Shown: one piece after another, positions 11,333 to 33,614 of the stretch
Layout: every line of letters begins with the position of its first letter
Position numbering within the stretch: the stretch's first letter is position 1
Assembly: GCA_022648545.1 (NCBI GenBank)
Contig: JALCMP010000003.1
Location: 62,001-126,000, forward strand
Reading direction: 5' to 3'
Source: Bacteroidales bacterium
Lineage (GTDB): Bacteria; Bacteroidota; Bacteroidia; Bacteroidales; UBA932
Length of the DNA: 64,000 nt
Made by a program: the position numbers and the translations under genes
The notes under the pieces: model-generated
Told to the model about the DNA's origin: nothing
Seen by the model: the letters and a program-made list of their open reading frames with translations, nothing else
Database searches by the model: none

Positions 11333-11338
11333 ACTCTA

Positions 11339-11976: not shown

Positions 11977-12023
11977 AATTAAATCCTGCTATAAAATGTT
12001 ACCTATCTGTTTTTCTCAAATGG

Positions 12024-13334: not shown

Positions 13335-13367
13335 AGCTCAAAAACTTTTTAACTGTTAAACAATATA

Positions 13368-15303: not shown

Positions 15304-15340
15304 CGCTAAAAAATTAATGCTATCTACTATACGTAGAATT

Positions 15341-15372
15341 ACCGGTAAATGGTACCCAAATACCGGTAACTT
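15341..15372. repeat. Two CCGGTA palindromic motifs between terminase and portal
   Basis: The 78-base gap between the large terminase and portal genes contains ACCGGTAA at 15341 and TACCGGTAAC at 15361, with GGTACC between them. The ten bases CCGGTAACTT at 15363-15372 recur at 30239-30248 inside the leftward promoter of the control region. This could be a protein-binding site or chance. Confidence 0.35.
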
Positions 15373-15381
15373 GAAAAATAT

Positions 15382-17762: not shown

Positions 17763-17765
17763 ATC

Positions 17766-18146: not shown

Positions 18147-18229
18147 AATTTTCTATTTTTAGACGTTATTTTCAAAAGTTCCGCGTTTCCAAAAAATTAT
18201 TTAGGTTTTTTCTTGAGTGGGGGCGAGGT

Positions 18230-18607
18230 TTACTCGGTAGTACCCCCATTTAAAAAATCGGCCCCCGTCTCGTCGTCTCCGAAAAATTTTGCGATTATCT
18301 CGGCTGCGTGCTTTTCCTGGCGCTTCCGGTTCGCTTCCTTGCCGCACCTGCCTAACTCCGTGTGTGTCTTAACGTGGCAGTCGTGGCACAGTGCTACCAG
18401 GTTGTGCGGGTCATACATACGACGCGTACGCTCCGCCCTGGTGTGCGCTTCCTCTACCGGCTTGACGTGGTGCACCTCGGTAGCCGGCGTTACCAGGTTC
18501 TCTCTTTCGCACCGCTGGCAAAGCGGGTGCGCCGTCAGTACTGCTTTGCGAAGCCGTAGCCATCTGGCCGTATGTATCAGCTTCTGGTATTCCTTATCCT
18601 TTGCCAT
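18230..18607 (-). CDS. HNH endonuclease next to terminase
   Basis: The 125-residue protein shows the full HNH layout: a zinc-binding CQRC (about residues 34-37), the catalytic pair in EVHHVKPVEE (about 47-56), Asn in DPHNLVALC, and a second zinc pair CHDCH. HNH proteins encoded beside the terminase of HK97-type phages are needed for cutting at the cos site with the large terminase. The gene is four bases from the preceding small gene and is followed by an 83-base gap that could hold a packaging site. Start is ATG at 18607. Confidence 0.88.
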   Translation of the reverse strand: MAKDKEYQKLIHTARWLRLRKAVLTAHPLCQRCERENLVTPATEVHHVKPVEEAHTRAERTRRMYDPHNLVALCHDCHVKTHTELGRCGKEANRKRQEKHAAEIIAKFFGDDETGADFLNGGTTE

Positions 18608-18610
18608 AGC

Positions 18611-18892
18611 TCAATCCTTTTTAGTTCTGTTCCTGCGCTGCTTCGGCGGGTTCGTGTTGGCCGGGGTCTTTTCGTAGTTTCCCAGATCCTCAAACATACC
18701 GTCTATATACTGGCCGTCCTCGTCCGGCAGATCGTAGCGACGACGGCCGGCTGCCTCTGTCCGGTCTAACAGTATATGCACGAAAGCTACCACCAGCTCG
18801 CACGCGTTCTTAAATCCGTACTTCCTTTTAAGCTCCTGCAGGCGCTCGTAGGTTTCCGGATCTATAGATATATTTACCCTTTTCCTATCCAC
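18611..18892 (-). CDS. Small ribbon-helix-helix-like protein
   Basis: The 93-residue product starts at a GTG at 18892, which overlaps the helicase gene by eight bases. The opening RVNISIDPETYERLQELKRK fits a ribbon-helix-helix DNA-binding fold: a short strand followed by a helix. The C-terminal 30 residues are polar and basic (PPKQRRNRTKKD) and probably disordered. It may regulate transcription or take part in replication or packaging. No specific family is recognised; the DNA-binding call rests on the N-terminal pattern. Confidence 0.55.
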   Translation of the reverse strand: MDRKRVNISIDPETYERLQELKRKYGFKNACELVVAFVHILLDRTEAAGRRRYDLPDEDGQYIDGMFEDLGNYEKTPANTNPPKQRRNRTKKD

Positions 18893-20261: not shown

Positions 20262-20574
20262 AGCCCAAAGATTTAAAAACGTTGTCCACTTCCTCTTTGC
20301 AGCCCAGCACGTATACCGGGTGTCCTATATCCGCCATCTGCCCGAAGCGCACGCGCTGCACCTTTGACGGTCTGCGGCCGCGGCTCTTTAATTCTATCCA
20401 TATCGTACGGCCCTGCGGCATAAGCGCCACCCGATCCGGGTAGCCTACTTCGTTGCTGTTGCTGTACTTCAGGCAGACGCCGCCCAGCTGTTTTACCACA
20501 TTCACTAAATAGCGCTCTATGGCTTTTTCGCTTACTTCCGCGTGCTTTACTATATTTTCTATCTTCTTCTCCAT
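20251..20574 (-). CDS. VRR-NUC domain nuclease
   Basis: The 107-residue product is a compact PD-(D/E)xK nuclease of the VRR-NUC type. The catalytic residues are in VGYPDRVALMPQGRTIWIEL, with the acidic Asp at about residue 47 and the ExK (ELK) near 62-64, followed by KVQRVRFGQMADIGHPVYVL. Members cut branched or flap DNA. The gene overlaps the SNF2 helicase gene by 11 bases, and the two proteins probably act together. Upstream lies the iteron cluster at 20596-20880. Confidence 0.9.
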   Translation of the reverse strand: MEKKIENIVKHAEVSEKAIERYLVNVVKQLGGVCLKYSNSNEVGYPDRVALMPQGRTIWIELKSRGRRPSKVQRVRFGQMADIGHPVYVLGCKEEVDNVFKSLGYDL

Positions 20575-20595
20575 TTTTCTCTAAAGTTATACCCG

Positions 20596-20880
20596 GTAAA
20601 CGGTAAACGCAAACTTTGTTTTTTCTAACATTTTCCCGCGTAATAGATATATACCCTATAATAATACCCGTATATACATATATTACACTATTTATAATCT
20701 TTTACTATATTTATCGTTTACTCCGTTTACCATAGGTTAAAGTAGTTATATATCAGTTAGTTAGCGGTAAACGATAACGGTAAACGATACGGTAAACGAT
20801 TTTTTGCGTTTACCTTTGTGCTGCTTACCCGTTTTTCGGTTGCGTTTACTCCGTTTACCTTTTTGGGCAGTATCGTTTAC
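20596..20880. repeat. GTAAAC/GTTTAC iteron cluster, likely replication origin
   Basis: Eleven copies of the hexamer GTAAAC or its complement GTTTAC lie within 285 bases, at 20596, 20603, 20716, 20725, 20767, 20780, 20792, 20808, 20844, 20853 and 20875. Three consecutive copies extend to GGTAAACGAT and are spaced 12-13 bases apart (20766-20800), about one helical turn. The stretch from 20610 to 20760 is very AT-rich. Repeats spaced by a turn next to an AT-rich zone inside a replication block are typical of an initiator-binding origin. The role is inferred. Confidence 0.72.
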
Positions 20881-21088
20881 CGGTTTCCGGTGTTTTTCCG
20901 CTTTGTTCCGAAAATGCGTTTTTTGGCATTTTTTCGGCTTGTTTTGTTCGATTTTGCCCGTTTTTCGTGCTGATAGCGTCAAATTCCGTTAAATCGCCCT
21001 CGCCGTCTATATGGTAGCGGGGTACGTTGTGCCCGTAGTCGTATTCGTCGTTATCCTCATACGGGGGCAGTGTATTTTCCTTTTCCAT
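20855..21088 (-). CDS. Small phage protein, function unknown
   Basis: The 77-residue product begins MEKENTLPPYEDNDEYDYG and is acidic at the start and basic at the end. No motif is recognised. It starts 11 bases after the primase-helicase gene, so it is read from the same transcript. Its last codons run into the iteron cluster: one repeat encodes Gly-Lys-Arg and another supplies the TAA stop. The N-terminal half looks like a real protein. The tail is shaped by the repeats, so the end of the protein may not matter. Confidence 0.5.
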   Translation of the reverse strand: MEKENTLPPYEDNDEYDYGHNVPRYHIDGEGDLTEFDAISTKNGQNRTKQAEKMPKNAFSEQSGKTPETGKRYCPKR

Positions 21089-21099
21089 ATCCTTGTAAT

Positions 21100-23523
21100 T
21101 TATAGGTCGTCGTCCTCGTCCTGGCTTGCCTCTATCCTGCGGAAGCCTCGCTGCACCCCGTAGAGGTTCTGGCAGTGTTTCGTACTGCTTACCTTTTCCC
21201 AGTTCGGCAGCTGGCCGATCATCCGGCTGATACGGCGCGCCAGGTACTTAAATTCTTTGTCGGCCATATCCCGGCCCAGTCTCTCGCAGATAAATTCTAC
21301 TGCGCTGACGCGCTGGCGCTGCTCCGTTCCCTCCGCATCCAGGGGGTCGGGATCACGCCACCAGGCGCGGCGCCTCAGCAGGTCGTACGTCTCCCAGTCC
21401 GGCGGCAGCTTCGCATCTAAAAAGTTATGCAGCATTTCGGCCATAGGGTCGTCGCTGTCGTCGTTATAGTCGTGCTGGCGCTTCTTCGCCTCGCGCTCCA
21501 TATCGTTATCCAGGTATAGTTTTTCGCCGTTTTTGTAGTAGTGCACCGCCTCGGCCCAAAGCTGGTCGCGGTCGTTGTCTAACTGCTTCTGCCAGTCTGT
21601 GTACTTCCTCAGCGACGGATCCACGGCGATAACCCAGAAACGGCGGTTTCCGGTGTCTCCTTTCAGGAAAAACGCCTCGTTTGTCGTTCCGCAGAAAATG
21701 CACTGCCGCGGGTGCTCGGTCGTCCTCCGGTCGTAGGCCGCGCGGTATATATCCGTCTGTTTGGATAGGTAGGCTTTTACCTGCTCTACGTCGCTGCGCT
21801 TGATACTGGAAAGCTCGCCCATTTCGATAACCCAGGCACCGCGAAGCTGCGCCATACCCTCTTTGCCCTCCGTGGTTACGATACTGTCGTTAAACCACTG
21901 GCCGCCCATCTTGTTTAGCAGCGTGGATTTTCCCGCGCCCTCCGGGCCGGTCATAATCAGGCAGTAATCGTATTTGCATCCTGGGCGGAAAACGCGGGCT
22001 ACAGCCGCCGTAAAGTGTTTGCGGGTCATAGTCCGGTTTAGCTCGTTGTCCTCGGCTCCTATGTAGTCTATAATAAGCCTATCCAGCCGCGGCGTACCGT
22101 CCCAGGTCAGCCCGCTGAGGTAGTCGCGGATAGGGTGGTAGTTATGGCGTGTAAGCACGGCTGCCACTGCGTCGTTAATCTTGTCTTTGCCGGTTATATC
22201 GTAGTTACGTTCCAGCCATACGCGCAGGTTCGCGTCGTCTCGATCCGTCCACTGTCTCGCGCGTTTGTTCCAGGGAAGCCCGCCTACCACCATATCGAAG
22301 CCGCTAAACTCGTCGTGCTTGATATGCCCGGCCAGCGCCGGGTCGTTTTCCAGTATCATAATGATATTACCCATAGTGCACTGCAGCTTCCCGCTTTTGC
22401 TGTACTCCAAATCGGCTTTCCATTCGTCGCTATAATCGTCCGGCAGCTCCACGTACGCGAAATCGTCGGCCGCTTCCTGCTCCTTTTCTCTGGCCATCAG
22501 CAGCCGTACTTTTTTGTCCTCGCTTACGAAAGCCTGCATATCCTCGTAGCTCGGCATACGGGTAATATCCTGGGCGTGGCTGCCCTCGTCTTTGGCTCCG
22601 AACAAATGTATACGCACCAGGTCGAAAGCGTTGCAAAGCTGGCGGCTTGCTGGGTCTGTCTCGTGGTGGCTGTATGCAAACTTGTTTTCGTAGCATACCA
22701 GGCCGCCGGCCACGCTTCCCAGCTTGTAGGTATAGCGCCCGGGTGTAGCGGTGGCCTCGTAGTAGTCGGTAAGGAAAGTATCTATAGCGTCCTCGATAGA
22801 GTAGGTACGGCAGAAAGCGCCTATAAGGCCGGGTTTCCCGGTAGGGTCTCCGGCCTTTTTTATCTCGTGCGCTATTACGTCGCTTTCTCTGCTGGATAGC
22901 GGCCAGGCCGATACGTCGAAAGGATCCACGTACTGCGCCAGCACCTTATCCACGTCGCACGCCGGGCCGTCCTGGTACTCGAAAACGTAGTCTGCGTCCT
23001 TGCTGGTGCTCGGCCAGTAGAATAGGCGCGGCAGCTCGTAGGTCGTGTCGTCGAACAGATCTATACCCAGTTCCGCCGCTATCTTCCGGCAGATCGGCTC
23101 GTATTCGGCCGGGGTTACCTGGCGGGATAACGGAAAAACCAGTCTGTAGCGCGGGTGCGCTGCGCTGTGCTTGTGGGTGCTGTAAAGCATAGCGGCAAAG
23201 TCAAACGCCATAGTAAAGTCATCCCAGACGTTCAGGGTGCCGTAGTCTATATCCAGCGTGGCCACGCTCCGGTACATTACATTAGTATTTTTTCGTACGC
23301 CGCCGCTGAGGTAGCCGCCGACAAATCCGCCGACGTCCTTTATATTGCTTTGTTCCTCGCGGCTCATTTTGGCGTATTCTGCGCCCGTTTCGCCGGTGCG
23401 CTTTGTCTCGCTGCACCGCTCCAGCAGTTCGGCCCAGCGCCACTGCCTATTACGCCATTTTTTGGACGTACGGGTATGCGCTGTGGCCAGGTCTACCGTA
23501 AAATCGTGCTTTACCTTGATCAT
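21100..23523 (-). CDS. VapE-type primase-helicase
   Basis: This 807-residue protein joins two parts. The N-terminal 300 residues resemble an archaeo-eukaryotic primase: a DID motif in VATLDIDYGTL (about residue 90) and a histidine motif in YSTHKHSAAHPRYR. The C-terminal part is a virulence-associated E helicase, with Walker A TGPEGAGKST at about residue 523 and Walker B-like WVIEMGELSS near 562. Such proteins start and unwind phage replication forks. It overlaps a small Cys-rich gene by four bases. The primase assignment is from motifs; the helicase part is firm. Confidence 0.85.
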   Translation of the reverse strand: MIKVKHDFTVDLATAHTRTSKKWRNRQWRWAELLERCSETKRTGETGAEYAKMSREEQSNIKDVGGFVGGYLSGGVRKNTNVMYRSVATLDIDYGTLNVWDDFTMAFDFAAMLYSTHKHSAAHPRYRLVFPLSRQVTPAEYEPICRKIAAELGIDLFDDTTYELPRLFYWPSTSKDADYVFEYQDGPACDVDKVLAQYVDPFDVSAWPLSSRESDVIAHEIKKAGDPTGKPGLIGAFCRTYSIEDAIDTFLTDYYEATATPGRYTYKLGSVAGGLVCYENKFAYSHHETDPASRQLCNAFDLVRIHLFGAKDEGSHAQDITRMPSYEDMQAFVSEDKKVRLLMAREKEQEAADDFAYVELPDDYSDEWKADLEYSKSGKLQCTMGNIIMILENDPALAGHIKHDEFSGFDMVVGGLPWNKRARQWTDRDDANLRVWLERNYDITGKDKINDAVAAVLTRHNYHPIRDYLSGLTWDGTPRLDRLIIDYIGAEDNELNRTMTRKHFTAAVARVFRPGCKYDYCLIMTGPEGAGKSTLLNKMGGQWFNDSIVTTEGKEGMAQLRGAWVIEMGELSSIKRSDVEQVKAYLSKQTDIYRAAYDRRTTEHPRQCIFCGTTNEAFFLKGDTGNRRFWVIAVDPSLRKYTDWQKQLDNDRDQLWAEAVHYYKNGEKLYLDNDMEREAKKRQHDYNDDSDDPMAEMLHNFLDAKLPPDWETYDLLRRRAWWRDPDPLDAEGTEQRQRVSAVEFICERLGRDMADKEFKYLARRISRMIGQLPNWEKVSSTKHCQNLYGVQRGFRRIEASQDEDDDL

Positions 23524-23705
23524 TTTTTTACGGCCTCCTGCTCCGTCGGTTTTTTAGGCTTCCACCCGGCGCAGCCGGTAGTAGTCAGCGGGTAGTCTAT
23601 CAGGTAGCTAAAGTAGCTGCCCATAATGCACGCTTTATACTTGCCGTCTACGGTGTGCAGGTTAGCGCAGGTGGTGCAGTCTTTGTTTGAATTATTATTC
23701 GCCAT
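23520..23705 (-). CDS. Small Cys-rich phage protein A
   Basis: The 61-residue product begins MANNNSNKDCTTCANLHTVD and has four Cys: a CxxC pair at 10 and 13, Cys27, and Cys45 in TTTGCAGWKPKKP. This is a plausible zinc site. It overlaps the primase-helicase gene by four bases downstream and a second Cys-rich gene by 11 bases upstream. The two neighbours share the CxxC-x(n)-C-x(n)-GC layout and may be relatives. I do not recognise a family. A role in replication control is possible from its place only. Confidence 0.6.
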   Translation of the reverse strand: MANNNSNKDCTTCANLHTVDGKYKACIMGSYFSYLIDYPLTTTGCAGWKPKKPTEQEAVKK

Positions 23706-23847
23706 AGTTCGGATCGTCTACTGGTATATGGTCTATGCAGCCGGGCTGGTAGTAGTCCACCGCATTATCGGTCAAATTACAAAAGCTGCCCTGGTACGTC
23801 TGGTAGCAGGATATGCAGTTACCGCAGATAGGCTGCGGCTGTTCCAT
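23695..23847 (-). CDS. Small Cys-rich phage protein B
   Basis: A 50-residue frame starts with ATG at 23847 and stops with TAA at 23695-23697. It reads MEQPQPICGNCISCYQTYQG and ends VDDPNYGE. Five Cys (positions 8, 11, 14, 22 and 37) make a zinc-binding fold likely. The stop overlaps the start of the next Cys-rich gene by 11 bases, so the two are probably translated together. It resembles its neighbour in Cys layout (CxxC, a later C, and PGC/TGC near the end). Function unknown. Confidence 0.6.
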   Translation of the reverse strand: MEQPQPICGNCISCYQTYQGSFCNLTDNAVDYYQPGCIDHIPVDDPNYGE

Positions 23848-23925
23848 TGTCTTTTTGTCCTCTTTTTCTATATCAGATTATTATTTTAAAAAGTTCTGCG
23901 CGTATAGCCGGACGCGCGGCCGGCT

Positions 23926-24168
23926 CTATTTCTGCGTTTCCAGGCGGCTAATTTCGTCCTGGATATAAAAAATAGCTTTCCGCAAATCCTCTATAGTCTT
24001 TGCCTTGTGGCCCAGTACCGGGTCGTCTTTCAGTCCGGCGCGCCATAAATACTTAATGGCGTTTCCCACGTTGAAATTACGCCACCTGGTTATCTGTATG
24101 CACTCGACGCCGGACGGGTCGCTGGTATAGTGCTTCGGGTGGTTTACATTATCGTTTTGCTGTGCCAT
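23926..24168 (-). CDS. DUF3310 protein
   Basis: The 80-residue protein carries the DUF3310 signature: NHPKHYTSDPSGVECIQITR (residues 9-28), then NVGNAIKYLWRAGLKD and the helix IEDLRKAIFYIQDEI. This small phage family is sometimes annotated as nucleotide kinase related, but its biochemical role is not established. It is encoded within the replication block and overlaps the next gene upstream by 20 bases. Start is ATG at 24168. Confidence 0.9.
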   Translation of the reverse strand: MAQQNDNVNHPKHYTSDPSGVECIQITRWRNFNVGNAIKYLWRAGLKDDPVLGHKAKTIEDLRKAIFYIQDEISRLETQK

Positions 24169-24508
24169 TTTCGGATCTGTTTAAAATTCGTATGTTTTCC
24201 GCTACTTCCGTGTAGCTGTATTCTCCGGTTTTCCGGTTTGCTTCCTCTCCTTTGCAGCTCAGCAGCTCGTCGTCCGGATCCTGGCCGTAATCGTGCATAA
24301 AGCATAAAAACTTAGTGCCGTTAGACAGTTCTACTATGTAGGGGCAGTCTCCCGTATCGCCTACTATCTCTTTTTCGCAGGTACTTATACTTACTGTGTA
24401 GTTCGGGTTAAATTCTATATACCCGTCTATGGCAGTCCAGCGTTTATCGCCGTATCTGCGTATGGCAGCGTGGCGAAATCTTAAAAACTTTTTAGGTTGT
24501 GTAAACAT
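24149..24508 (-). CDS. Small phage protein, function unknown
   Basis: The 119-residue protein is taken from the ATG at 24508, 11 bases after the polymerase stop; a longer frame would run into the polymerase gene. It begins MFTQPKKFLRFRHAAIRRYG and contains ISTCEKEIVGDTGDCPYIVE, a strand-rich segment. No family is recognised. It lies between the DNA polymerase and DUF3310 genes, so it is likely to serve phage DNA metabolism. Its small size and mixed composition suggest a single alpha/beta domain. Confidence 0.6.
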   Translation of the reverse strand: MFTQPKKFLRFRHAAIRRYGDKRWTAIDGYIEFNPNYTVSISTCEKEIVGDTGDCPYIVELSNGTKFLCFMHDYGQDPDDELLSCKGEEANRKTGEYSYTEVAENIRILNRSENGTAKR

Positions 24509-24519
24509 TGTATTATATT

Positions 24520-26466
24520 TTAGTCTTTTAAATAATACGGGGTGGTGTAGCCTGCACCTTTCAGCGGCAGATCCTCGCACCATCCTATAGGATCACTAAA
24601 TAGGGCTTCCACTTCTTCCAGGGTCTGGCCCGGTTCGGCTTCCACTATAATTTCGTCGTGTATATGGAAAACGATTTTAAGGCCCTTACTTTCGGCCCGT
24701 AAAATGATAAAGCCCAGTATATCGCGCGCTATGGCCTGCACTACGTTTTCAGTCAGCTTTCCGCCGTAGGTACGTATCTTTTCCCACTTCTTGGTTATCT
24801 GGTTCATACCCTCGTACTCGATAATATCGTGGTCTCCGCGCCAGCCGTCGTTACGCTCTATGCCTACAGTAGCCCGCGGGTAACAGATCGTGCGCCCTGA
24901 CGGCAGGGTAATAAACAGAAAACCCCATTTATAGCTGACTACTATACCGCGGTTTATAGTTACCGCCTCGTGCGTTTTTATCGCATGTATGGCGGCTGCC
25001 TCAACCGTAGCCCAGAATTTTACTATATGCGGGTTAGCTTCCCGCCATCTGTGTACTATATCCCGTTCCTCGTCCTCGGTCAAACCCAGGCGGCTACCGC
25101 CCATAGCTTCCAGCGCAGAAACGCCGCCGCCGTAACCCAGGGCCAGGGTAGAAATCTTACCTTTTTGGCGAAGCTCCCCGTTTATACCGTGCTTCTCTAC
25201 CGGTACGCCAAACATTTTAGACGCCGTACTGCAGTATATATCGCCGCCGGATCTAAATACGTCCAGTACCCAGCTTTCGCCGGATAGCCAGGCTACTACG
25301 CGGGCCTCTATCGCGCTAAAGTCGCATACGTGAAAAACACATCCGGGTTTAGCCACGAAAGCGGTACGTATTAGTTCGCTCAGTACCTGGGTAGGGTTTT
25401 CGTAGTTCAGCTGGAAATTATCGAGGTCTCCCAGTTTAACCAGCTGGCGTGCGTAGTCCAGATCCTCTAAATGGTTCTGCGGCAGGTTCTGCACCTGCAC
25501 CAGCCGGCCGGCCCAGCGTCCGGTACGCGCGGCTCCGCAAAACTGTAAAAGTCCGTGTATACGTCCGTCGCTGCATACGCACTGCTGCATAGCGGTATAT
25601 TTTTTATTACTGGTCTTGCCCATTTCGCGGCGCAGCTCGATAACCCGGCAGGCTTTCGCGTTTCCCTCAACTTGGGCGGCTACGTCGTCCAGTACTTTTT
25701 TGTTCAGGGTCTCCACCTCGACGCCGGCCACTTTTTTTAAATAGGCCTTTATCTGGGCGGGGCTGCTCGGGTTCTCCATACCGGTAAGCGCTTTCGCCTC
25801 ATCCACCAGCTGGGCTTTATACTCGGCGTCGAAGCGGGCGGCGTTGTCTACCAGCCGGCGATCCATCAGCACGCCGCGGTCGTTTATATTCTGATCCGCT
25901 ACGTACAGCTGTTCGTCAAAGTCGGCAGGCTCCAGGCGTCTAACCTTTGCTAATATCGCCTGCTCCACCTCTACGTCTCGTATATTGTATCTTTTAAAAA
26001 CTTCCCAGCGGTCGGGTGCGTCTGCCGGCAGGTGTCGTTTGCCGCGTGTGGGTGTGGAAAAATAGCGTATAAGCGTCGCGCCCTCTTTCATCTTGCCGTC
26101 GGCCAGGTGCAGCACTTCTCCGCACTGCCCCAGGGAAAGCGGCAGGCCCATACGCGCAGCGCGTACCATAGTGCAGCGCCACTGCTTCGGATCCATAAGC
26201 GGCCAGCCATAATACCGGCTAATGCAAACGCGCTCAAATACGGCGTTAAATGCAGTCTTGATAACGGCCGGATCGCGAAGCGCAGCTACTATGCTGTCGG
26301 GCAGCGTTTCTCCCTGCGCCATATCGCAGCAGATAACCGGGCCGCCGTCCACGGCATAGGAAAACAGCAGTATAGTAAAGTCCGGGGCCTCCGCATACTT
26401 GTAGACGCCGCAGCTTTTAAGGTCTGCACTGCTGTAGGTTTCTATATCTATCCCTAATTCTCGCAT
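24520..26466 (-). CDS. DNA polymerase, family A, with 3'-5' exonuclease
   Basis: The 648-residue protein is a phage family A polymerase. The exonuclease motifs are Exo I DIETYSS (Asp7, Glu9), Exo II in TAFNAVFERV (about 71-80), and Exo III in YNIRDVEVE (Tyr159, Asp164). Polymerase motif A is DFSAIEARV (382-390), and motif C is HIHDEIIVE with Asp-Glu near 604. It lacks the 5'-nuclease domain of PolI, as in phage enzymes. It probably copies the phage genome with the VapE primase-helicase. A terminator at 26490-26529 lies immediately upstream. Confidence 0.95.
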   Translation of the reverse strand: MRELGIDIETYSSADLKSCGVYKYAEAPDFTILLFSYAVDGGPVICCDMAQGETLPDSIVAALRDPAVIKTAFNAVFERVCISRYYGWPLMDPKQWRCTMVRAARMGLPLSLGQCGEVLHLADGKMKEGATLIRYFSTPTRGKRHLPADAPDRWEVFKRYNIRDVEVEQAILAKVRRLEPADFDEQLYVADQNINDRGVLMDRRLVDNAARFDAEYKAQLVDEAKALTGMENPSSPAQIKAYLKKVAGVEVETLNKKVLDDVAAQVEGNAKACRVIELRREMGKTSNKKYTAMQQCVCSDGRIHGLLQFCGAARTGRWAGRLVQVQNLPQNHLEDLDYARQLVKLGDLDNFQLNYENPTQVLSELIRTAFVAKPGCVFHVCDFSAIEARVVAWLSGESWVLDVFRSGGDIYCSTASKMFGVPVEKHGINGELRQKGKISTLALGYGGGVSALEAMGGSRLGLTEDEERDIVHRWREANPHIVKFWATVEAAAIHAIKTHEAVTINRGIVVSYKWGFLFITLPSGRTICYPRATVGIERNDGWRGDHDIIEYEGMNQITKKWEKIRTYGGKLTENVVQAIARDILGFIILRAESKGLKIVFHIHDEIIVEAEPGQTLEEVEALFSDPIGWCEDLPLKGAGYTTPYYLKD

Positions 26467-26489
26467 TTTATCGGGTTGTTATCGTTATT

Positions 26490-26529
26490 AAAAAACCCGC
26501 GCAGCTGGCAGTAACCATATCTGCGCGGG
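26490..26529 (-). terminator. Intrinsic terminator between DUF2815 gene and polymerase
   Basis: A perfect nine-base inverted repeat, CCCGCGCAG at 26496-26504 and CTGCGCGGG at 26521-26529, forms a strong stem with a 16-base loop. On the minus strand it is followed by six T (26495-26490). It lies between the DUF2815 gene end (26543) and the polymerase start (26466), inside the early operon, so it should limit read-through to the polymerase unless antitermination occurs. Confidence 0.8.
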
Positions 26530-26542
26530 CAGGTTCAGGCGT

Positions 26543-27112
26543 TTATAGGTCGTCGTCGTCCTCTAAGTCGTCGCTAAAATCCACGTCGGCAAAATCGGTT
26601 TCCGCAGATACTCTGCCACCCAGCGGCGCGTCGTCCTTAAACTTCATTACGTTGTTTAGTCCGCACGCTACGCCGCGGTTACCGCTGACGTCGTAGCCGT
26701 AGAAAGTAACAGATACCACGGCCCAAACTCCGCTATACATTTCTTCTTCGTCTACGATCGGCTGTTTGTTCTTGCCTATGATACCTGGGCGGCTGTTGCA
26801 TTTTGCATTTACGTAGAAATGGTCTGCGTAAACTTCGTCGTCGTCCTTTTCGTCTCCGTCTCTCAGCGGCAGATCCAGTTTTTTAGGTTCCTTGCCGCTC
26901 CATTTTGATACTATGGCCAGTTTCTTACCGGCTTCTATGGCCTCTTTAATGGCTTTTACGGTTTCCTTTTCCTCTTTGGGAATAAGTACGTTTGTCATAA
27001 ACTTTCCGTTTGCTTCGTCTCCGTCGGGTGCATATTTCGCAAATAAATGCGTATAAGACAGACGGCACGGGCCAAATACTACTTTGTTTTCTTTTACGAT
27101 AGGTGTAATCAT
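26543..27112 (-). CDS. DUF2815 protein, probable single-strand annealing or binding protein
   Basis: The 189-residue product fits the DUF2815 family: ITPIVKENKVVFGPCRLSYT at the start, FAKYAPDGDEANGKFMTNVL, and a very acidic C-terminus (FSDDLEDDDDL). An acidic tail is the usual feature of single-stranded DNA-binding proteins. DUF2815 genes pair with DUF2800 nucleases and family A polymerases in many phages, which points to a recombination or replication role. The family function is inferred from this association. The start is ATG at 27112. Confidence 0.83.
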   Translation of the reverse strand: MITPIVKENKVVFGPCRLSYTHLFAKYAPDGDEANGKFMTNVLIPKEEKETVKAIKEAIEAGKKLAIVSKWSGKEPKKLDLPLRDGDEKDDDEVYADHFYVNAKCNSRPGIIGKNKQPIVDEEEMYSGVWAVVSVTFYGYDVSGNRGVACGLNNVMKFKDDAPLGGRVSAETDFADVDFSDDLEDDDDL

Positions 27113-27138
27113 AACTTTACGTTTTTAAATGTTTATAA

Positions 27139-27429
27139 TTATTTGTTTGTTAAATGTTCGGTCAGGCTTCTAAGGTTGGCCAGCGCTACGCCGGCTTTTA
27201 CGGCTTGCCCTACCTGCTCGTTATCGTGTATAAGGGAAGCCAGGCCCTCGCTGATCTGTACCGGGTTTTCCTGGGCTGCGGCCAGTACCATACGGCCGTC
27301 CTTTTTGTCGTTCTGGGCAGTAACCATAATAAGCGCGTGGCATTTGTTATCACCCACCAGCTGCAGCAGCTCGTTTACTTTGTCGCTGATCTGCTTCTGC
27401 ATAATTTTTTCTTTTTCTTCGGTTTCCAT
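27139..27429 (-). CDS. Small early phage protein, function unknown
   Basis: The 96-residue product lies between the DUF2815 and DUF2800 genes, with gaps of 26 and 40 bases. Residues of about 30-50 (NKCHALIMVTAQNDKKDGRM) contain a strand-turn segment, and the rest is helical. A second possible start is Met10. No family is recognised. Its constant place between nuclease and DNA-binding protein suggests a small accessory factor of the recombination module, which is an inference. Confidence 0.55.
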   Translation of the reverse strand: METEEKEKIMQKQISDKVNELLQLVGDNKCHALIMVTAQNDKKDGRMVLAAAQENPVQISEGLASLIHDNEQVGQAVKAGVALANLRSLTEHLTNK

Positions 27430-27469
27430 TTTATAGCTGTTTATCGTCTCCCGGAATACGCCGGGCCGT

Positions 27470-28624
27470 TTATAGGTCTATACCTTTGAAATCGTCTACT
27501 GCCGGGTTAATAGCCTGGCGTTTGTCGCTTTCCGGCACCAGGGTAGGTTTACCGTCCGGCTTCTCGATAAAGTCGCCGCAGATTGCCGCAAACTGTTTCT
27601 TTCCTACCAGCTTTTCCAGGTCGGTAATCGTACGCAGTTCCTGGGGCTTGTATATCTGGGTAGTCTTAAATCCCGCCTGGTTCAGCGCTACCGCCGCGCC
27701 GTCCTGGTCTACTATTTTGCGTATGCTTCTGCCGGCTACCACTTTATAGCCCGGAAGCTCTACGCCGGATAACGCCTGCTGCAGCGCGTAGTCCTCGATA
27801 CCGGCTAACCAGGTCTTTACCGTGTCTACCATAGGCAGTACGTCTTTGGCCAGTTCCGACGGGCTTAGCTTCTGCGGATCCTTATATTTTCCCGCGGTGT
27901 CTATGCAGCGTTTGGCCAGTGTACGGCAGCAGTTCTTAACTTTGCAGAAACGGCACCAGTCGCCGGGGTTCTGCTTTCCGTTTCCGGTGTATGCTAATGC
28001 GGCTTTCGGCTTTAGATCGTATTCTGCCCACTTCATCAGCTCGTCTACGTTTAGCTCGTATTCGCTAAGATTGTCTATACGCGGCTGTACGATAGTCATA
28101 CGTACGCGCTTTATATTGAAATCGTCGCCAAATTTGAGGTAGGCGCCCAGCGCGTAGATCATCATTTGCGGGTTGTTTACGGCAGATACCCGTACGCCCT
28201 TTCCATACTTAAAGTCGATAATCTCCATAAGGTCGTCGGCTATAATCACGGCGTCGCCGGTTCCGAAAGCCTCCGGTACGTAGGCGCCGAAGCTAAGGCG
28301 GGTTTCAACCAGCAGCAGCGCGTCGCTGGTGGTTACGCGGGCTGTATTGTACTTCTCCAGTACGATAGTCTTGTAGGTGTCCGTATACTCGTCCATTTCG
28401 CCGCTGTGGTATTCTGAGTCCAGGGTTTTAATTTCGTCCTGCTCGCCGTCTGTGGGCTGGTGCAAAAATTCTTTAAGTTTCAGCGCGCAGTAGGCGTGCG
28501 CTAACGTTCCCTCGGCTGCAAAGCTGCTGCCCTCGTCTACTATATCGGCTTCCAGGTGCGGTGCTGCCGGACAGTTCAGCCATCTGTGGGCTGCCGACGG
28601 GCTTAATAGTGCGTGTGCTCCCAT
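27470..28624 (-). CDS. DUF2800 PD-(D/E)xK nuclease, Cas4/RecB-like
   Basis: The 384-residue product matches DUF2800. The opening (LLSPSAAHRWLNCPAAPHLE) contains a Cys, and the nuclease core has EGTLAHAYC near residue 40, DAVIIADDLMEIIDFKYG near 124, and QMMIYALGAY. A Cys cluster, WCRFCKVKNCC near residue 220, probably holds an iron-sulfur cluster as in Cas4 and AddB relatives. It is likely a 5'-exonuclease working with the DUF2815 protein. It lies three bases from the gene at 28628. Start is ATG at 28624. Confidence 0.87.
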   Translation of the reverse strand: MGAHALLSPSAAHRWLNCPAAPHLEADIVDEGSSFAAEGTLAHAYCALKLKEFLHQPTDGEQDEIKTLDSEYHSGEMDEYTDTYKTIVLEKYNTARVTTSDALLLVETRLSFGAYVPEAFGTGDAVIIADDLMEIIDFKYGKGVRVSAVNNPQMMIYALGAYLKFGDDFNIKRVRMTIVQPRIDNLSEYELNVDELMKWAEYDLKPKAALAYTGNGKQNPGDWCRFCKVKNCCRTLAKRCIDTAGKYKDPQKLSPSELAKDVLPMVDTVKTWLAGIEDYALQQALSGVELPGYKVVAGRSIRKIVDQDGAAVALNQAGFKTTQIYKPQELRTITDLEKLVGKKQFAAICGDFIEKPDGKPTLVPESDKRQAINPAVDDFKGIDL

Positions 28625-28627
28625 AAC

Positions 28628-29137
28628 TTAAAACGGTAAATCTTGTGTTAGTTCCCCATTCTTGACAAATACGGCGTCGCACTCCTTGATAAAGGCCGCG
28701 CGTTTATCGCTTGTAGGTAGTGTGCTTGGTTTTTCAGCACCGTATACGGCTGCAGTGTTTTTAAACCAGGCAGTTAATACGCGGTGCCATTTCTTGTAAC
28801 CGTCGCTGTCTGTTTTCTCCTTGTAGTTCTCGCCCTCGATACGTTTACGGGTGCGATCCATAGCGGCGCGTACGTCCACGGCCGTATACTCCTTTTCCGG
28901 GGCTTCCTCCGGTTGAGGTTCCGGCGCTGCTTCCGGTTTCGGCTGCTCGGCTTTTTCTTCTGCCGCCGGTTTGGTTTCCGGTTTAGCTGCTTTCTTTGCC
29001 GGTTTTTCCGGTTTCGTTTCCTGGGCTACCGCTGTAGGTGCCGGCTGCAGGTGTCTACCGGCTACGGCAGTAATAAGATCTACCAGCGATTTATCCGCTG
29101 CAAAGTTTACCTGCACGTTAATTTTGATAGGTTCCAT
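28628..29137 (-). CDS. Phage protein with Lys/Glu/Pro-rich linker
   Basis: The 169-residue product has three parts. The N-terminus (IKINVQVNFAADKSLVDLI) is a short folded segment. A low-complexity linker of Lys, Pro, Glu and Ala follows (residues of about 38-85). The C-terminal 80 residues are helical with VRAAMDRTRKRIEGENYKEK and look like a DNA- or protein-binding domain. The gene is three bases from the DUF2800 gene, so the two are co-translated. No family is recognised. It may tether the nuclease, but that is a guess from position. Confidence 0.5.
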   Translation of the reverse strand: MEPIKINVQVNFAADKSLVDLITAVAGRHLQPAPTAVAQETKPEKPAKKAAKPETKPAAEEKAEQPKPEAAPEPQPEEAPEKEYTAVDVRAAMDRTRKRIEGENYKEKTDSDGYKKWHRVLTAWFKNTAAVYGAEKPSTLPTSDKRAAFIKECDAVFVKNGELTQDLPF

Positions 29138-29148
29138 AATCTCGTTAT

Positions 29149-29391
29149 TTAAAAATCGTTAGACATATTGGTAAATTCGGGTATAGTTCCCATTCGATCC
29201 CAGCGCTGGATAAGTTTATAAAGGATCCATCCGGAAGCCAGGCCGATAAGTTTTGAGGATATAAGGCAGTACAGCCAGCTGATAAACGGCTGCTCGTCGA
29301 TAGGCACTGAGAAAATGCCTAATACTGCTACAGTCATAAGTAGAAACATTACGTAGTAGCGGTAGTTTGTAAGTATCTTTTTTATTTTCAT
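29149..29391 (-). CDS. Small membrane protein, two TM segments
   Basis: The 80-residue product has two hydrophobic segments: about residues 11-28 (NYRYYVMFLLMTVAVLGIF) and about 38-58 (ISWLYCLISSKLIGLASGWI). The N-terminus is basic (MKIKKI) and so probably cytoplasmic. No family is recognised. It is an early gene next to small regulators. Possible roles are superinfection exclusion or interference with host membrane functions, which is speculative. Confidence 0.5.
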   Translation of the reverse strand: MKIKKILTNYRYYVMFLLMTVAVLGIFSVPIDEQPFISWLYCLISSKLIGLASGWILYKLIQRWDRMGTIPEFTNMSNDF

Positions 29392-29394
29392 ATT

Positions 29395-29652
29395 TTAGTG
29401 AATTAGGTAGTTAAACTTCTTCGATAGCGTGTATAGGATATTTCCCCAGTCTCCCACGGCCATATCCTCCCAGTGGCCGACGCTTCGGCCGTCTACCTTT
29501 GCTTCTCCGGCGCAGGTAATCTTAGATACGGTAAAGACGACGCGCCCGCCCTTGAATGTTTGGCGTATTTCCTTTGTCAGCTCGTTGTGGGTCGTCTCCA
29601 CTTCCGGTATATATCCGGTAGGCGCGGTTAGTAAATTGATAGTGCTAAGCAT
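29395..29652 (-). CDS. Small early phage protein, function unknown
   Basis: The 85-residue product is taken from the ATG at 29652 because an upstream ATG at 29694 lies inside the preceding gene. It begins MLSTINLLTAPTGYIPEVET and has the strand-rich segment GGRVVFTVSKITCAGEAKVD. No family is recognised. It sits among early leftward genes and overlaps nothing. Its beta-rich character suggests a small globular domain. Confidence 0.45.
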   Translation of the reverse strand: MLSTINLLTAPTGYIPEVETTHNELTKEIRQTFKGGRVVFTVSKITCAGEAKVDGRSVGHWEDMAVGDWGNILYTLSKKFNYLIH

Positions 29653-29669
29653 TTGAAAAAATTTTAGAT

Positions 29670-29870
29670 TTATAGATAGGTGGCTTCCCAGCATTTGAGT
29701 ATCTGGCGCCCCGTTGTGAATTTCGCCCGGCCGGCTTTGCGTACGTCGAAACGTATACAGCCGTCCAGCTCCCAGCGTCGGATCGTGTGGCGTTCCACGC
29801 CCAGGATCTGCGCAGCTTCTTTCTGGCTATAGCGTCTGTCAGGATCGCAAACTGGTTTAGTCGGCGTCAT
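29670..29870 (-). CDS. Excisionase-like MerR-type HTH protein
   Basis: The 66-residue product carries the helix-turn-helix YSQKEAAQILGVERHTIRRW (about residues 14-33), a pattern of winged-helix HTH_17 proteins, followed by a short wing with Lys/Arg. Small proteins with this fold in temperate phages are excisionases or early regulators. It overlaps the next gene upstream by 14 bases and lies near the control region. Excisionase or transcriptional control are both possible. Confidence 0.7.
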   Translation of the reverse strand: MTPTKPVCDPDRRYSQKEAAQILGVERHTIRRWELDGCIRFDVRKAGRAKFTTGRQILKCWEATYL

Positions 29871-30072
29871 ACCTTGTTACGCTTAGTGTTAAACCCTCTG
29901 TCTGGCACACAAAGCGGCAGTTTTCCATTTTCTGCATAGCGTAAGCGGTATTTTTCTGGCTATCCAGGTCGTAGCCGTTTGCGCAAACCACCGTAACAGT
30001 TTCCCCGTTTACCATCTGGCGTAGACGTTCACGGGTAATTTTTTCCGTCGTTCTTGTAGTCGTTTCTTCCAT
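29857..30072 (-). CDS. First leftward early gene, function unknown
   Basis: The 71-residue product starts MEETTTRTTEKITRERLRQM and has three Cys. No helix-turn-helix is visible, so it is not an obvious Cro. It is the first gene read from the leftward promoter at 30223-30253 and lies just after the first 20-bp repeat. It probably has a regulatory or early anti-host role, but the sequence alone does not tell. Confidence 0.5.
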   Translation of the reverse strand: MEETTTRTTEKITRERLRQMVNGETVTVVCANGYDLDSQKNTAYAMQKMENCRFVCQTEGLTLSVTRYDAD

Positions 30073-30092
30073 TTCTCGGTAAAAATTTTAAA

Positions 30093-30222
30093 TTTGTTCG
30101 TTTGTTCGTTGGTACATAAAGAAAAACTGCCTACCTTAGCGGTATATTTTTGGACGTTACAACCGGCTATTTTGGTCGGCAGCCTTTCTTATGCCCTTTT
30201 CGTTTGTTCGTTTGTTCGTTGG
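30093..30222. repeat. Two 20-bp direct repeats in the control region
   Basis: The sequence TTTGTTCGTTTGTTCGTTGG occurs at 30093-30112 and again at 30203-30222, spaced 110 bases. Each copy is itself a tandem of TTTGTTCG. The right copy overlaps the expected transcription start of the leftward promoter, and the left copy lies 20 bases before the first early gene. They are the best candidates for repressor operators. Confidence 0.65.
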
Positions 30223-30253
30223 CAAAGATAGAGGTTTTCCGGTAACTTCCAAA
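30223..30253 (-). promoter_or_regulatory. Leftward early promoter (Bacteroidota type)
   Basis: On the minus strand TTTG lies at 30253-30250, followed by a 19-base spacer and TATCTTTG at 30230-30223. This matches the -33 TTTG / -7 TAnnTTTG form of Bacteroidota housekeeping promoters. Transcription would start near 30217, within the right 20-bp repeat, and read the early leftward operon. Confidence 0.75.
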
Positions 30254-30343
30254 AGATTTAGTAAAAAATTACTCATTTTTCGGTAAAATTATTTCCTGAC
30301 CGGGCATAACGCTACCGAAATACAGGTTAAAATCTAATTTTGT

Positions 30344-30739
30344 ATGGAAGATTATAAAGAATTGGCGGACGACGTACGCGATAGAATTAATGCGACGCTA
30401 AAAGACAAAGGTATTACCCAAAACCAGGTAGCCGCCGGCGATACTCCGGCCCAAAAACGTATAAACAGTCAGCTGAGCCACGGCAGTAACATAACGTTAG
30501 ATACCGTGCTGCGCATCCTGGACGCCTGCCCGGACATATCCGCAGACTGGCTGCTGCGAGGATCCGGCGATATGTACGTAACGGCGGGCACCAGCGTAAC
30601 CGGCGCTAATAATGTAACCGGGCGCAGCGCTACCGTAATAGGCCAGAAGGTCGGCACGCTTACCGAAGATTTTGTGCGCGAGCTGATCGCGGAAAAAGAT
30701 AAACAGATACGTATGTTAATAGAGAAAATAGGAAAATGA
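30344..30739 (+). CDS. Phage repressor, HTH XRE family
   Basis: The 131-residue protein begins MEDYKELADDVRDRINATLK and has a helix-turn-helix in about residues 24-58 (ITQNQVAAGDTPAQKRINSQ, then ITLDTVLRILDACPDISADW). The WLLRGSGDMY sequence is typical of Bacteroidota prophage repressors. A Gly/Val/Asn-rich segment and a C-terminal helix (VRELIAEKDKQIRMLIEKIG) could mediate dimer formation. It is divergent from the early operon. A TAATTTTG box at 30335 sits one base before the ATG, so transcription may be nearly leaderless. Confidence 0.85.
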   Translation: MEDYKELADDVRDRINATLKDKGITQNQVAAGDTPAQKRINSQLSHGSNITLDTVLRILDACPDISADWLLRGSGDMYVTAGTSVTGANNVTGRSATVIGQKVGTLTEDFVRELIAEKDKQIRMLIEKIGK

Positions 30740-31152
30740 AAAAAGCGGTAATAGCAGCAGTGCTGGCGCTGATATTTTCGGCGTGCTCCAAAGATACAGA
30801 TACGGCAGTGCCTACCAGCGGGCAGTACGTATGCCGGTCTATGGATTTAGTTATGGCCCTGACGCTGGAAAACGAAAGCTGCACCGGGGCTACGGTGTTC
30901 GTGGGTGGAAAGTATACCGGCAGCTGGCCGGCCTCAACTTCCGGACACTACCCGAAATACGTATATAAGATAGACGGCCTGACGGTTCGCGCCAGGTTCT
31001 CGGACGTGGAAAGATTTAGCGCCGATATGGACGGCGTACTGGTGGGCGCAGACGGCGGCCGTACAGTCATAGCAGACGGCCCGGCTGTTACGTTTATCCT
31101 GGATAACGCACCGCTGGACGCCGACGGCGACGGCGTTTTAGACGTGCAGTAA
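30736..31152 (+). CDS. Prophage-encoded lipoprotein
   Basis: The 138-residue product begins with a type II signal sequence (MKKAVIAAVLALIFSAC, Cys17). The acylated Cys is followed by SKDTD, similar to the short charged motif that sends Bacteroidota lipoproteins to the cell surface. The rest is a small beta-rich domain (GATVFVGGKYTGSW). The C-terminus DADGDGVLDVQ resembles a calcium-binding repeat. The start overlaps the repressor stop by four bases (ATGA), so it is made in the lysogen. Superinfection exclusion or altered surface properties are plausible. Confidence 0.75.
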   Translation: MKKAVIAAVLALIFSACSKDTDTAVPTSGQYVCRSMDLVMALTLENESCTGATVFVGGKYTGSWPASTSGHYPKYVYKIDGLTVRARFSDVERFSADMDGVLVGADGGRTVIADGPAVTFILDNAPLDADGDGVLDVQ

Positions 31153-31190
31153 AAATGCAAATTTTCAGCAAACGATTTTAGTAGTATTAT
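31150..31190. other. Right phage-host junction
   Basis: The phage lipoprotein gene ends at 31152 and the host glycerophosphodiesterase gene ends at 31165 on the other strand. That gene lacks the last part of its domain, so the crossover probably lies within this AT-rich stretch. No repeat core can be named because the left end is not in the window. Confidence 0.55.
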
Positions 31191-32202
31191 AAACCGCTGA
31201 TTTATAGCGCGTTAAAGATACCTTATTTATATAATTAGGATAATCGATGCCGTCAATACCATCCAGAGCCAGGACGTTCAAAGGCTTATCATCTGCCAGA
31301 TAGGCTGTTTTTGCCTGGGGATCTAATTTTTTAACATATTCAAGAGCTCCATAATTAAAACTTATATAATCCACCCAGGCCTGCGCTTTTATTTTATGTA
31401 CCAGCGAAACAATCTTTCGGGTAAGTTCCAAAGTCCTCTTCTGGCTTATAAGCGAAGACTTGATTTCCAATATTAACTGCGTATGATTTTGCTTTTTAAC
31501 AACATTCAGGTACTCTTCCAGAGTAGGAATATAATCCCCGCAATCAAGGGGGACTTTAGTCAGTTCGGTAACAGTTTCCTTCTCCATAAAATGGTCCTTG
31601 ATTGAAGGGTCATGACTTATTACCGGAACACCGTCTGCAGAAAGCCATACATCGAATTCAGATCCTTCGGCTCCTATCTTCATGGCATTTTTCAATGAAG
31701 AGATGGAATTCTGACTGCCGGAAAAATGTTTCCAGGCTCCTCTGTGGGCTATAACCTTATTATGGATAAACTCATCTTTTACAAGTTCGAAGCAAAGAGT
31801 TGTATCTGATGTCCTTATTTCTATACCATAACGAAATCCGGGAGTTTGCGGGGTAACAGACTTGTTTTTTTTAAGAAAGAGATATCCTCTTTTATCCATT
31901 GTAAATAAGTTGGAAGTATCTTTCTTTATTCGGAATTTGGATTTATGATTCCCAGACGCAGGACAAATCAATCTTCCTACAAAGACTCCCTTTTTATTTG
32001 TGGATATTCTGTAATTAGAAAGACAGTAAGACGAGTCCGAATAAAGCACCTTACCTAATGACACAGTTTCCGGAGTTGAAATATAAGGTTTAACGGCAAA
32101 AAAATTGTCGCAGGCCATATCACTTCCCTTAATAGGGGAAACAGGACAAGCACAACATGTCCAAATAACAATGAATAAATTCGTTTTTAAAAACCTAAAC
32201 AT
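31165..32202 (-). pseudogene. Glycerophosphodiester phosphodiesterase, C-terminus lost at prophage junction
   Basis: The frame starts with ATG at 32202 (345 residues). It has a signal-like N-terminus, a beta-rich N-terminal domain (about 30-150), then a GDPD domain with NKVIAHRGAW (catalytic His and Arg), GAEGSEFDVWLS (Glu, Asp), and VISHDPS. The domain normally ends with a strand near a WTVN motif and a final VD-x-ITTD segment, about 40-50 residues on. Here it stops at TTKIVC beside phage DNA. Loss of that part should impair the barrel. It is the last gene of a five-gene operon, with a five-base gap to the esterase. A functional shortened enzyme is not excluded. Confidence 0.65.
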
Positions 32203-32207
32203 ATCTT

Positions 32208-33614
32208 TTACCAATTATCAGTTCTAAAAGGGATCAACGGCAAACCGTTTACATCAAACAGATCGGGGAGTGCGTCATTAGTAAAACAATATCTTACGGA
32301 AACAGGATTACTGACTTCTGCAGAGGAGACTTTTATTACCCCGTCGGAAAGAATAACGGCATCGGCGGAATAAAAAATCTTATCGGCTCCGGCTATCTGA
32401 AAATTCTTGATTTTTCTCCCGGAACATTTGAGTTTGCCGCAGGTCTTTACTGAAACATAAGCACTATTTCCTTTTATTATAAAACCACATATACTTGGAG
32501 AAAATGATGATATGGTTTTTAAACCATATTTTTTACTCAATGCCATATCTGCAAGACGTTCGCCCAATTCCCTTTTTCTGCCGGGATGGAGATTCGATAC
32601 ATCCTCCGTGAGATCCGAAACCGGCACCATGCTGGTACGCGGCAGAGACAATGCATCAGCCTGCTGCTCCCTAAGATAAGCACCGTCTATGCCTTTATAT
32701 CCGTTCCATGGTGCTATTTGAACAAAATAAAAAGGGAAATCTTCCGAAAAGGCATATCTCCATCCTCGTATCATGGCTTTAAAAAGTTTTGCATAATCAT
32801 GCGGGTTCCTGGAAACATTTGCCTCTCCCTGATACCATATGGAGCCGGCTATCCTGTACGAGGTAAGGGGATTTATCATAGCATTATACAAAACCCCGCC
32901 ACCTTCGGGGGCGCATTTGTAAGATTCTTTGTTTACGGCTGCCGTCCTGAGGTCAGAATCTCCGTAAAGAATATTCGCAGGGATCCAGGACTGTATGCAT
33001 GATCCTTCCCAATATGACCCTATCAGACCTATGGGACTTTTCAATATTTTATTCAATTTACGTCCGAAGAAATATCCTGTCGAACTAAAATGGAATGCAC
33101 TTTTCTTATCGCAAACGACCCATTCGCCGCTGCAATCGGAAAGCGGAAACCTGTCATAAGATTTCTTTACTTCAAAAAACCTTATTTCATTGTTGCTGCA
33201 ATCTTCAAAGGCCGAACCGGCATCAGAAAGGCCCCATCCGGCATTAAATTCCATATTTGACTGACCTGAACAGATCCAGACCTCACCGAATATTATATCT
33301 CTTATTTTCAGCTTTTGACTGCCGCACATAAAAATTATGGAATCGCCGCCTGAAGATGACGGTGTATGTACATTAATTTCCCAATCACACTCAGGCGTAA
33401 TCCTGGTTTTTAAAGTATCTCCGGGCATCCAGCTGCAAACCACTTTGAGTGCAAGGCCACCCGGACCTTTCCCCCATAACTTAACTTCTGTATTTTCCTG
33501 CAGAACGGCATGATCGCTCAGAACAGCCGGCAAAACCAGAGGCAATTCCTGTGCAGATACATAAACGGCAGAACCGATAAAAAGGACAACAAAAAGAGAA
33601 ATAATTTTTTTCAT
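32208..33614 (-). CDS. Sialate O-acetylesterase-like SGNH hydrolase
   Basis: The product (468 residues from the ATG at 33614; an ATG at 33632 is also possible) has a signal peptide (KKIISLFVVLFIGSAVYVSA). The SGNH block I with catalytic Ser is WICSGQSNMEF near residue 100, and the His/Asp pair is near LHPGRK (about residue 340). The sequence WYQGEANVSR carries the block III Gly-Glu-Ala. Sialate O-acetylesterases remove acetyl groups from sialic acid; other members act on acetylated polysaccharides. It is next to an alpha-galactosidase, which fits processing of host glycans. Periplasmic. Confidence 0.8.
   Translation of the reverse strand: MKKIISLFVVLFIGSAVYVSAQELPLVLPAVLSDHAVLQENTEVKLWGKGPGGLALKVVCSWMPGDTLKTRITPECDWEINVHTPSSSGGDSIIFMCGSQKLKIRDIIFGEVWICSGQSNMEFNAGWGLSDAGSAFEDCSNNEIRFFEVKKSYDRFPLSDCSGEWVVCDKKSAFHFSSTGYFFGRKLNKILKSPIGLIGSYWEGSCIQSWIPANILYGDSDLRTAAVNKESYKCAPEGGGVLYNAMINPLTSYRIAGSIWYQGEANVSRNPHDYAKLFKAMIRGWRYAFSEDFPFYFVQIAPWNGYKGIDGAYLREQQADALSLPRTSMVPVSDLTEDVSNLHPGRKRELGERLADMALSKKYGLKTISSFSPSICGFIIKGNSAYVSVKTCGKLKCSGRKIKNFQIAGADKIFYSADAVILSDGVIKVSSAEVSNPVSVRYCFTNDALPDLFDVNGLPLIPFRTDNW

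Follow-up and report, generated by a model that had tools for sequence, protein, structure and literature searches.

A lipoprotein gene overlapping the repressor of a Bacteroidales prophage appears to occupy an exchangeable slot for exported proteins

What could be the role of a small lipoprotein gene that stands at the edge of a prophage and overlaps the stop of the repressor gene? The question is raised by a 64,000-nucleotide stretch of a Bacteroidales genome (the window), the relevant features of which are collected in Table 1. A first-pass annotation had proposed that the lipoprotein start overlaps the repressor stop by four bases, and the two open reading frames bear this out, as the ATG of one shares 4 nt with the TGA of the other. 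It had also described a lipobox at Cys17 followed by SKDTD, and both are present in the 138-aa product, where an MKK n-region and a hydrophobic core lead to FSAC, ending at Cys17, with SKDTD next. The C-terminal DADGDG repeat was likewise found, as LDADGDGVLD within a C-terminus that reads LDADGDGVLDVQ; this acidic motif recurs in most of the family and may bind calcium. The likeness of SKDTD to the surface-export signal of Bacteroidota stands only in part: the available text of PMC5080379 gives the minimal signal (LES) in Capnocytophaga as K-(D/E)2 after the lipid cysteine, and the window's CSKDTD, with its lysine at +3 and aspartates at +4 and +6, is near to this signal but does not match C-X-K-(D/E)2 exactly. 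A lipobox was found in one of 46 non-overlapping ORFs of the prophage, namely this gene, by a crude scan that overlooked one spanin-like lipoprotein whose start had been set too early. Pfam gave only a sub-threshold lipid-attachment match for the lipoprotein, and NCBIfam and PADLOC gave none.

Table 1. Features at the right prophage end and in the adjoining host gene (window coordinates).
Feature	Position	Strand	Remarks
Prophage part inside the window	1..31239		flank junction, integrase, GC step; begins left of the window
Control region, leftward early genes to repressor	30096..30343		GTTCGTTTGTTCG at 30096 and 30206
Repressor-like HTH protein	30344..30739	+	131 aa; PHROG transcriptional-regulator match, E 1.5e-4
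Lipoprotein ORF, slot cargo	30736..31152	+	138 aa
Predicted signal peptide, residues 1-16	30736..30783	+	
Cys17 codon	30784-30786	+	
LDADGDGVLD, calcium-loop-like motif near C-terminus	31114..31143	+	in 9/13 family members
GCAAATTTTCAGC, candidate integrase arm site	31157..31169	+	4 nt past lipoprotein stop
Right attachment core ATAATTAGG	31231..31239		left-end counterpart ATAATAAGG
Host glycerophosphodiester phosphodiesterase gene, 3' part cut off by prophage	31240..32214	-	GDPD model 1-169

The repressor call is based on the modest PHROG profile match, on 64% identity to a protein annotated as 'cycle regulator' in phage Bacuni F1 and on the divergent position of the gene; an S24 domain was not found in the protein, and Pfam gave no HTH match at E up to 1. 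The two copies of GTTCGTTTGTTCG before the repressor are possible operators, and the same sequence was seen once in locus L015 and in none of the other 11 loci scanned. GGTAA/TTAC-type motifs are frequent in the control region by eye. The Bacteroidota promoter element TAnnTTTG lies 9 nt upstream of the repressor ATG in the window, though not in the other 12 loci, and was not found within the repressor gene in any of 13 loci, which fits putative co-transcription of repressor and cargo. A promoter scan near the lipoprotein gene gave counts near those of shuffles, and four terminator-like sites were present against 1.8 expected, none of them directly 3' of the gene.

The lipoprotein gene is the last gene of the phage, as the end of the prophage was set by joining its flanks at the attachment core. 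Joined at this core (ATAATwAGG), the flanks give one host ORF of 383 aa, and the piece beyond the left prophage end (G000:C3, left of 55371) matches GDPD model positions 202-242; the prophage sits in the host GDPD gene, near its 3' end. It extends from G000:C3:55371 to window position 31239 (37.86 kb, about 37.9 kb), with GC falling from 0.473 (30001-31000) to 0.412 (31001-32000), and its integrase, with SAM-like and arm-binding domains, lies left of the window at G000:C3:55588-56811. No tRNA was found in the window. A comparison with an unoccupied site in relatives was sought, and the host gene was found in one of 39 genus genomes, the window's own. The 13-bp repeat GCAAATTTTCAGC was considered as attachment core and rejected, as joining there failed to restore the host ORF whereas ATAATwAGG did. 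It has two exact copies in the 124 kb examined, one near each prophage end, and one further copy with a single mismatch inside the prophage, while TTTTCAGC follows the slot stop codon in 13 of 14 loci examined, with a near copy in L015. GCAAATTTTCAGC and TTTTCAGC are read here as a putative integrase arm site, and the attachment core itself begins after 78 nt from the lipoprotein stop.

Several further features of this prophage and its relatives were observed. In L013 (7225-8580) and L010 (8041-9405), a histidyl-tRNA synthetase gene recognised by Pfam starts about 50 nt past the cargo in the same direction; L005 and L014 have such a start likewise after the cargo, as read from the N-terminus, and L008 has a short hisS-like start beside the arm site. 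Insertion at hisS in these relatives would place hisS downstream of the repressor-cargo operon. The parts of a diversity-generating retroelement, a reverse transcriptase and a candidate variable protein, are found at G000:C3:58314-60970, as in Bacuni F1; the candidate target protein has a sub-threshold Lcl_C match, and its role as target is a reading of the sequence. In addition, DUF2800, DNA polymerase A, PF10991 (which we take to be the former DUF2815), SNF2, TerL, portal and capsid genes are present, together with a VRR-NUC match under its cut-off and a protease that is S78 and not Clp. The nine core genes of Candidatus Heliusviridae are given in the available text of PMC9226167 as DUF2800, DUF2815, DNA polymerase I, VRR-NUC, SNF2-like helicase, TerL, portal, Clp protease and major capsid.

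The first-pass annotation knew of no relative of the lipoprotein, and this has been overturned. A tblastn search of 50,697 phage records returned three, in the Bacteroides phages Bacuni F1, F2 and F4 (MT635598, MT806186, MT806185), at 33% identity and E 3e-9. These phages share with the window the order of repressor, lipoprotein and recombinase, the 4-nt overlap, the same early and structural gene order and a diversity-generating retroelement. The lipoprotein is annotated as 'hypothetical protein' in all three records, and the word lipoprotein occurs once in PMC8143477, in the reference list. As sole query the window lipoprotein had no match in viral contigs or genome contigs, and the F1 lipoprotein had none in viral contigs; among 299 genomes of the host's family the one match was the window's own genome. 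A profile of the lipoprotein matched 37 of 393 Bacteroidales genomes (best E besides the own gene 2.8e-7), none of which was counted as a member because nearly all listed matches were partial and started at the signal peptide; the match in G041 is nearly full length (profile 1-136, E 9.1e-4).

A profile of the mature part was more productive, with 13 distinct family members identified in 124 loci (3,482 ORFs); these loci were chosen mainly by context, so that absence of the family elsewhere in them says little. The members in L087, L094, L114 and L009 were absent from profile building and were recovered at E 2.7e-26 to 1.7e-16. All 13 come after a repressor or another slot gene, and a lipobox was called in 11 by script and in the other two by eye. 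The C-X-K-(D/E)2 signal is exact in four members, the window lipoprotein not among them, partial in four, and acidic without K in five. The earlier proposal that the lipoprotein is coupled to the repressor is thus supported by sequence, with the coupling retained in divergent phages; the recurrence of the pair and of the protein family in other phages, along with the lone lipobox in the crude scan, places the pairing above chance.

Searching with the repressor yielded 22 distinct related-repressor loci after duplicates were collapsed. In 19 of the 22, the repressor is followed by a gene for an exported or membrane-anchored product, according to crude calls made by a simple hydrophobicity/lipobox script and by reading, the script's general criterion having missed L009, L014, L023 and L087. 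An exact 4-nt overlap between repressor and next gene is found in 12 of the 22. The slot holds the window's lipoprotein family in 11 loci (window, F1, L008, L010, L013, L015, L016, L017, L019, L087 and L094). L090 has a different lipoprotein there, L005, L018, L022 and L089 have a protein with a signal peptide, and the product is membrane-anchored in L009 and L014 (both with a HIRAN domain) and in L023, the last being the weakest case at 64 nt from the repressor. A second exported gene is present in the slot of L009 and L087. The exceptions are L021 and L024, in which a short unrelated ORF is followed by the integrase, and L011, in which an exported glycosidase-like protein of 810 aa, which we take to be a host gene product, is encoded 40 nt downstream. 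For comparison, 29 distant chromosomal HTH regulators were taken and 27 located, of which seven had an ORF of at least 70 aa beginning within 60 nt; one of these seven (L033), presumably resembling dihydroorotate dehydrogenase, would meet the crude export criterion through a hydrophobic N-terminal stretch. The control loci came from a repressor profile search across the order, used for this purpose only, in which 268 of 393 genomes matched, mostly as weak HTH matches. Within the window's prophage, three of 46 ORFs are exported-like, the lipoprotein gene included. Among the slot proteins scanned, those with a HIRAN domain alone passed a Pfam family cut-off, and so most slot content is without assigned function. 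The HIRAN proteins with an N-terminal hydrophobic anchor are encoded at L009:8392-8964 and L014:8383-8958, and the L009 protein shows weak matches to PADLOC candidate systems (best E 4.4e-6). A published description of the slot was not found in literature search listings or in the available text of PMC8143477 and PMC9226167.

The content of the slot is exchanged between otherwise similar phages. L008, L013 and L005 are 93.0-97.3% identical across 4.5-6.9 kb, up to a point 20-57 nt within the cargo gene; blastn then gives no match before the final few nucleotides of the cargo gene, from which point 76-126 nt align again. The repressor and the signal-peptide start are kept and the mature protein differs, being one of two lipoprotein subtypes or an unrelated secreted protein. 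Similarly, phage A (L012 cargo) and phage B (L008 cargo) are at least 97% identical across about 29.5 of the 35.0 kb of A. They diverge in cargo, in the module for portal, protease and capsid (63, 75 and 44% identity), at the tip of a tail fibre and in smaller segments. With the secreted cargo as query, 12 loci were found, among them five new distinct phages (L114, L116/L117, L118/L119, L120 and L123). An S24-type repressor is followed in L114 by a member of the window's lipoprotein family and then by the secreted cargo, and in L116 it lies 2 nt from the secreted cargo; both main cargo families are therefore also found after S24-type repressors. In L118 the upstream gene encodes an HTH-like protein (weak by Pfam) with a 4-nt overlap, in L120 a related repressor lies 19 nt away, and in L123 the cargo is too close to the contig end for the upstream gene to be read. 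This second exported family, of about 180 aa with '(T)DS(I/V)G(V/I)', thus occurs after several kinds of repressor, and no member scanned matched a Pfam family above cut-off. Slightly better than even is the broader reading that Bacteroidales temperate phages have a standard export socket in which mature surface or secreted domains are exchanged as cartridges, so that recombination would re-dress the lysogen surface. Its fixed front would be the repressor, the ATGA coupling and the signal-peptide start, and its fixed back the stop codon with the integrase arm site beyond it; the same cartridges would function behind unrelated repressors while the remaining phage genome stays 93-97% identical.

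The AlphaFold2 model of the lipoprotein, built with eight sequences, is all-beta with ten strands (mean pLDDT 83.4, pTM 0.74), its sole helix being in the signal peptide; a model computed for the secreted cargo reached a mean pLDDT of only 53.2 and was set aside. At E <= 0.001, Foldseek retained none of 762 PDB matches and none of 962 viral matches. Above this threshold, the best PDB match was Tp0751 (E 6.9e-3, TM 0.44), followed by bile-acid and fatty-acid binding proteins. None of eight mature parts scanned matched a PHROG at E 0.05. Homology to Cor (PHROG 1119), suggested by two of nine members with a best E of 0.0017, was rejected, as it was lost without the signal peptide (0/8 mature parts).

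Tail-fibre tips offered a further comparison. Variable-protein genes were located in seven phages, and six were compared, as the neighbouring ORF in L087 (duplicate stretch L130) is no fibre; no such gene was found in the L015, L019 and L090 stretches, and no fibre region was seen in the L014 record when the tails of L009 and L014 were compared. There are three tip types, shared by the window, B and L016, by A and L009, and represented by F1. The window, B and L016 have the same tip type yet two lipoprotein subtypes, as assigned by reading, and the tips of A and L009 are 89% identical over 381 aa while the cargo differs. This speaks against exclusion matched to receptor through the fibre tip, cargo type showing no correspondence to tip type in the six phages. 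For derivatives of a Bacuni host that had become resistant or switched tropism, the available text of PMC8143477 reports changes in proteins that include one of SusC type and one of OmpA type.

Both the lipoprotein and its slot are real and conserved, and broader than the first-pass annotation had it. We put at about 0.85 the probability that the repressor operon ends in a conserved slot in which genes for exported proteins are exchanged, this gene among them, with lysogeny-linked expression. As read from the sequences, the slot is bounded by the repressor on one side and the attachment site on the other, with the cargo start over the repressor stop and a swapped mature part. The exported or anchored content and the frequency of overlap, set against the HTH control, support this explanation, taken together with the proposed exclusion described below, as do the swap among L005, L008 and L013, the cargo families behind S24-type repressors, the lipobox throughout the family, the ltp-like position and the mEpimmI precedent discussed below. 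Counted against it are the exact LES in only four of 13 members, the crude export calls, and the report, in the available text of PMC8143477, that its authors found no lysogens of the Bacuni phages.

Most simply, repressor and cargo would form a lysogeny operon in which the second gene sets a surface property of the lysogen. A single mRNA would carry repressor and cargo, so that the lipoprotein would be produced in the quiet lysogen; Cys17 would be lipidated, and by way of the charged N-terminus the small all-beta domain would reach the outer membrane and probably its outer face. An outer-membrane or surface location is likely. The lipoprotein is most likely lysogenic-conversion cargo displayed on lysogens, and the slot suggests that it alters or protects the host cell of the phage. 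At the surface it might lower superinfection by masking a receptor or by blocking DNA entry, in the manner of known phage exclusion lipoproteins. Superinfection exclusion is the leading function proposed, at something less than an even chance, and the whole chain through to exclusion is equally tentative. The missing match between cargo and fibre tip, and the lack of a sequence or fold link to exclusion proteins, count against it; exclusion might act at the stage of DNA entry or against unrelated phages.

Other explanations draw on the same observations. The surface protein could instead benefit the host by binding a nutrient, a bile component, a host factor or a neighbour cell, raising the fitness of the lysogen. 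The diverse, mostly exported slot contents and the cargo unlinked to the fibre tip would suit such conversion, and the best (non-significant) fold matches are to a surface lipoprotein of lipocalin-like type and to proteins that bind lipids or bile acids; however, no family match indicates a ligand and every fold match has E above 0.001, and we consider this explanation somewhat less likely than exclusion. That the partner tunes repressor action or induction, in the manner of Hex of phage 434, is improbable. The overlap with the repressor gene and the precedent of a repressor-protecting partner made from the repressor mRNA (PMC3564112, available text) speak for it, but Hex works on a cytoplasmic repressor whereas slot proteins bear export signals, and mature parts are swapped while the repressor is unchanged. 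Very improbable is a mere passenger, gathered by chance through recombination near the attachment site and coupled incidentally: the slot does adjoin the attachment region, but 19/22 exported or anchored contents against 3/46 exported-like ORFs in the window's prophage, and the return of the same families behind unrelated repressors, argue otherwise.

The preferred reading of a repressor-coupled export slot provides a rule for finding lysogen-expressed exported proteins in gut-type Bacteroidota prophages, namely to look at the gene overlapping or following the repressor. Should the slot products act in exclusion, they would help to decide which temperate phages co-occupy a host; if they serve the host, the slot would be a route for prophages to alter commensals.

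Among known systems, the closest parallel in position is Ltp of Streptococcus thermophilus phage TP-J34, for which the available text of PMC3952083 describes a small lipoprotein with a proven role in superinfection exclusion, its gene standing between those for repressor and integrase and being transcribed from the prophage. The window gene similarly encodes a lipoprotein with a predicted lipid anchor at Cys17, and in the window and F1 it has the same place in the lysogeny module, from repressor to integrase or attachment site. However, ltp is separated from its repressor by one more gene, without overlap, and Ltp has a repeat domain with helices, in contrast to the all-beta model here; no sequence link between the two was found. 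In E. coli, mEpimmI lysogens make several kinds of lipoprotein that exclude phages, with a rough but not strict correspondence to receptor group (PMC11893012, available text); the genes are located in the structural gene cluster, whereas that of the window directly follows the repressor. Hex, which phage 434 makes from its repressor mRNA as a second product, resembles the window lipoprotein in that its reading frame overlaps the repressor gene; it differs in protecting the repressor by acting on RecA-stimulated cleavage, and export of Hex is not reported in the available text of PMC3564112. In position, then, the window lipoprotein resembles Ltp, while in sequence and fold it does not; by the features tested it lies outside the known exclusion families, and that it works like one of them is plausible.
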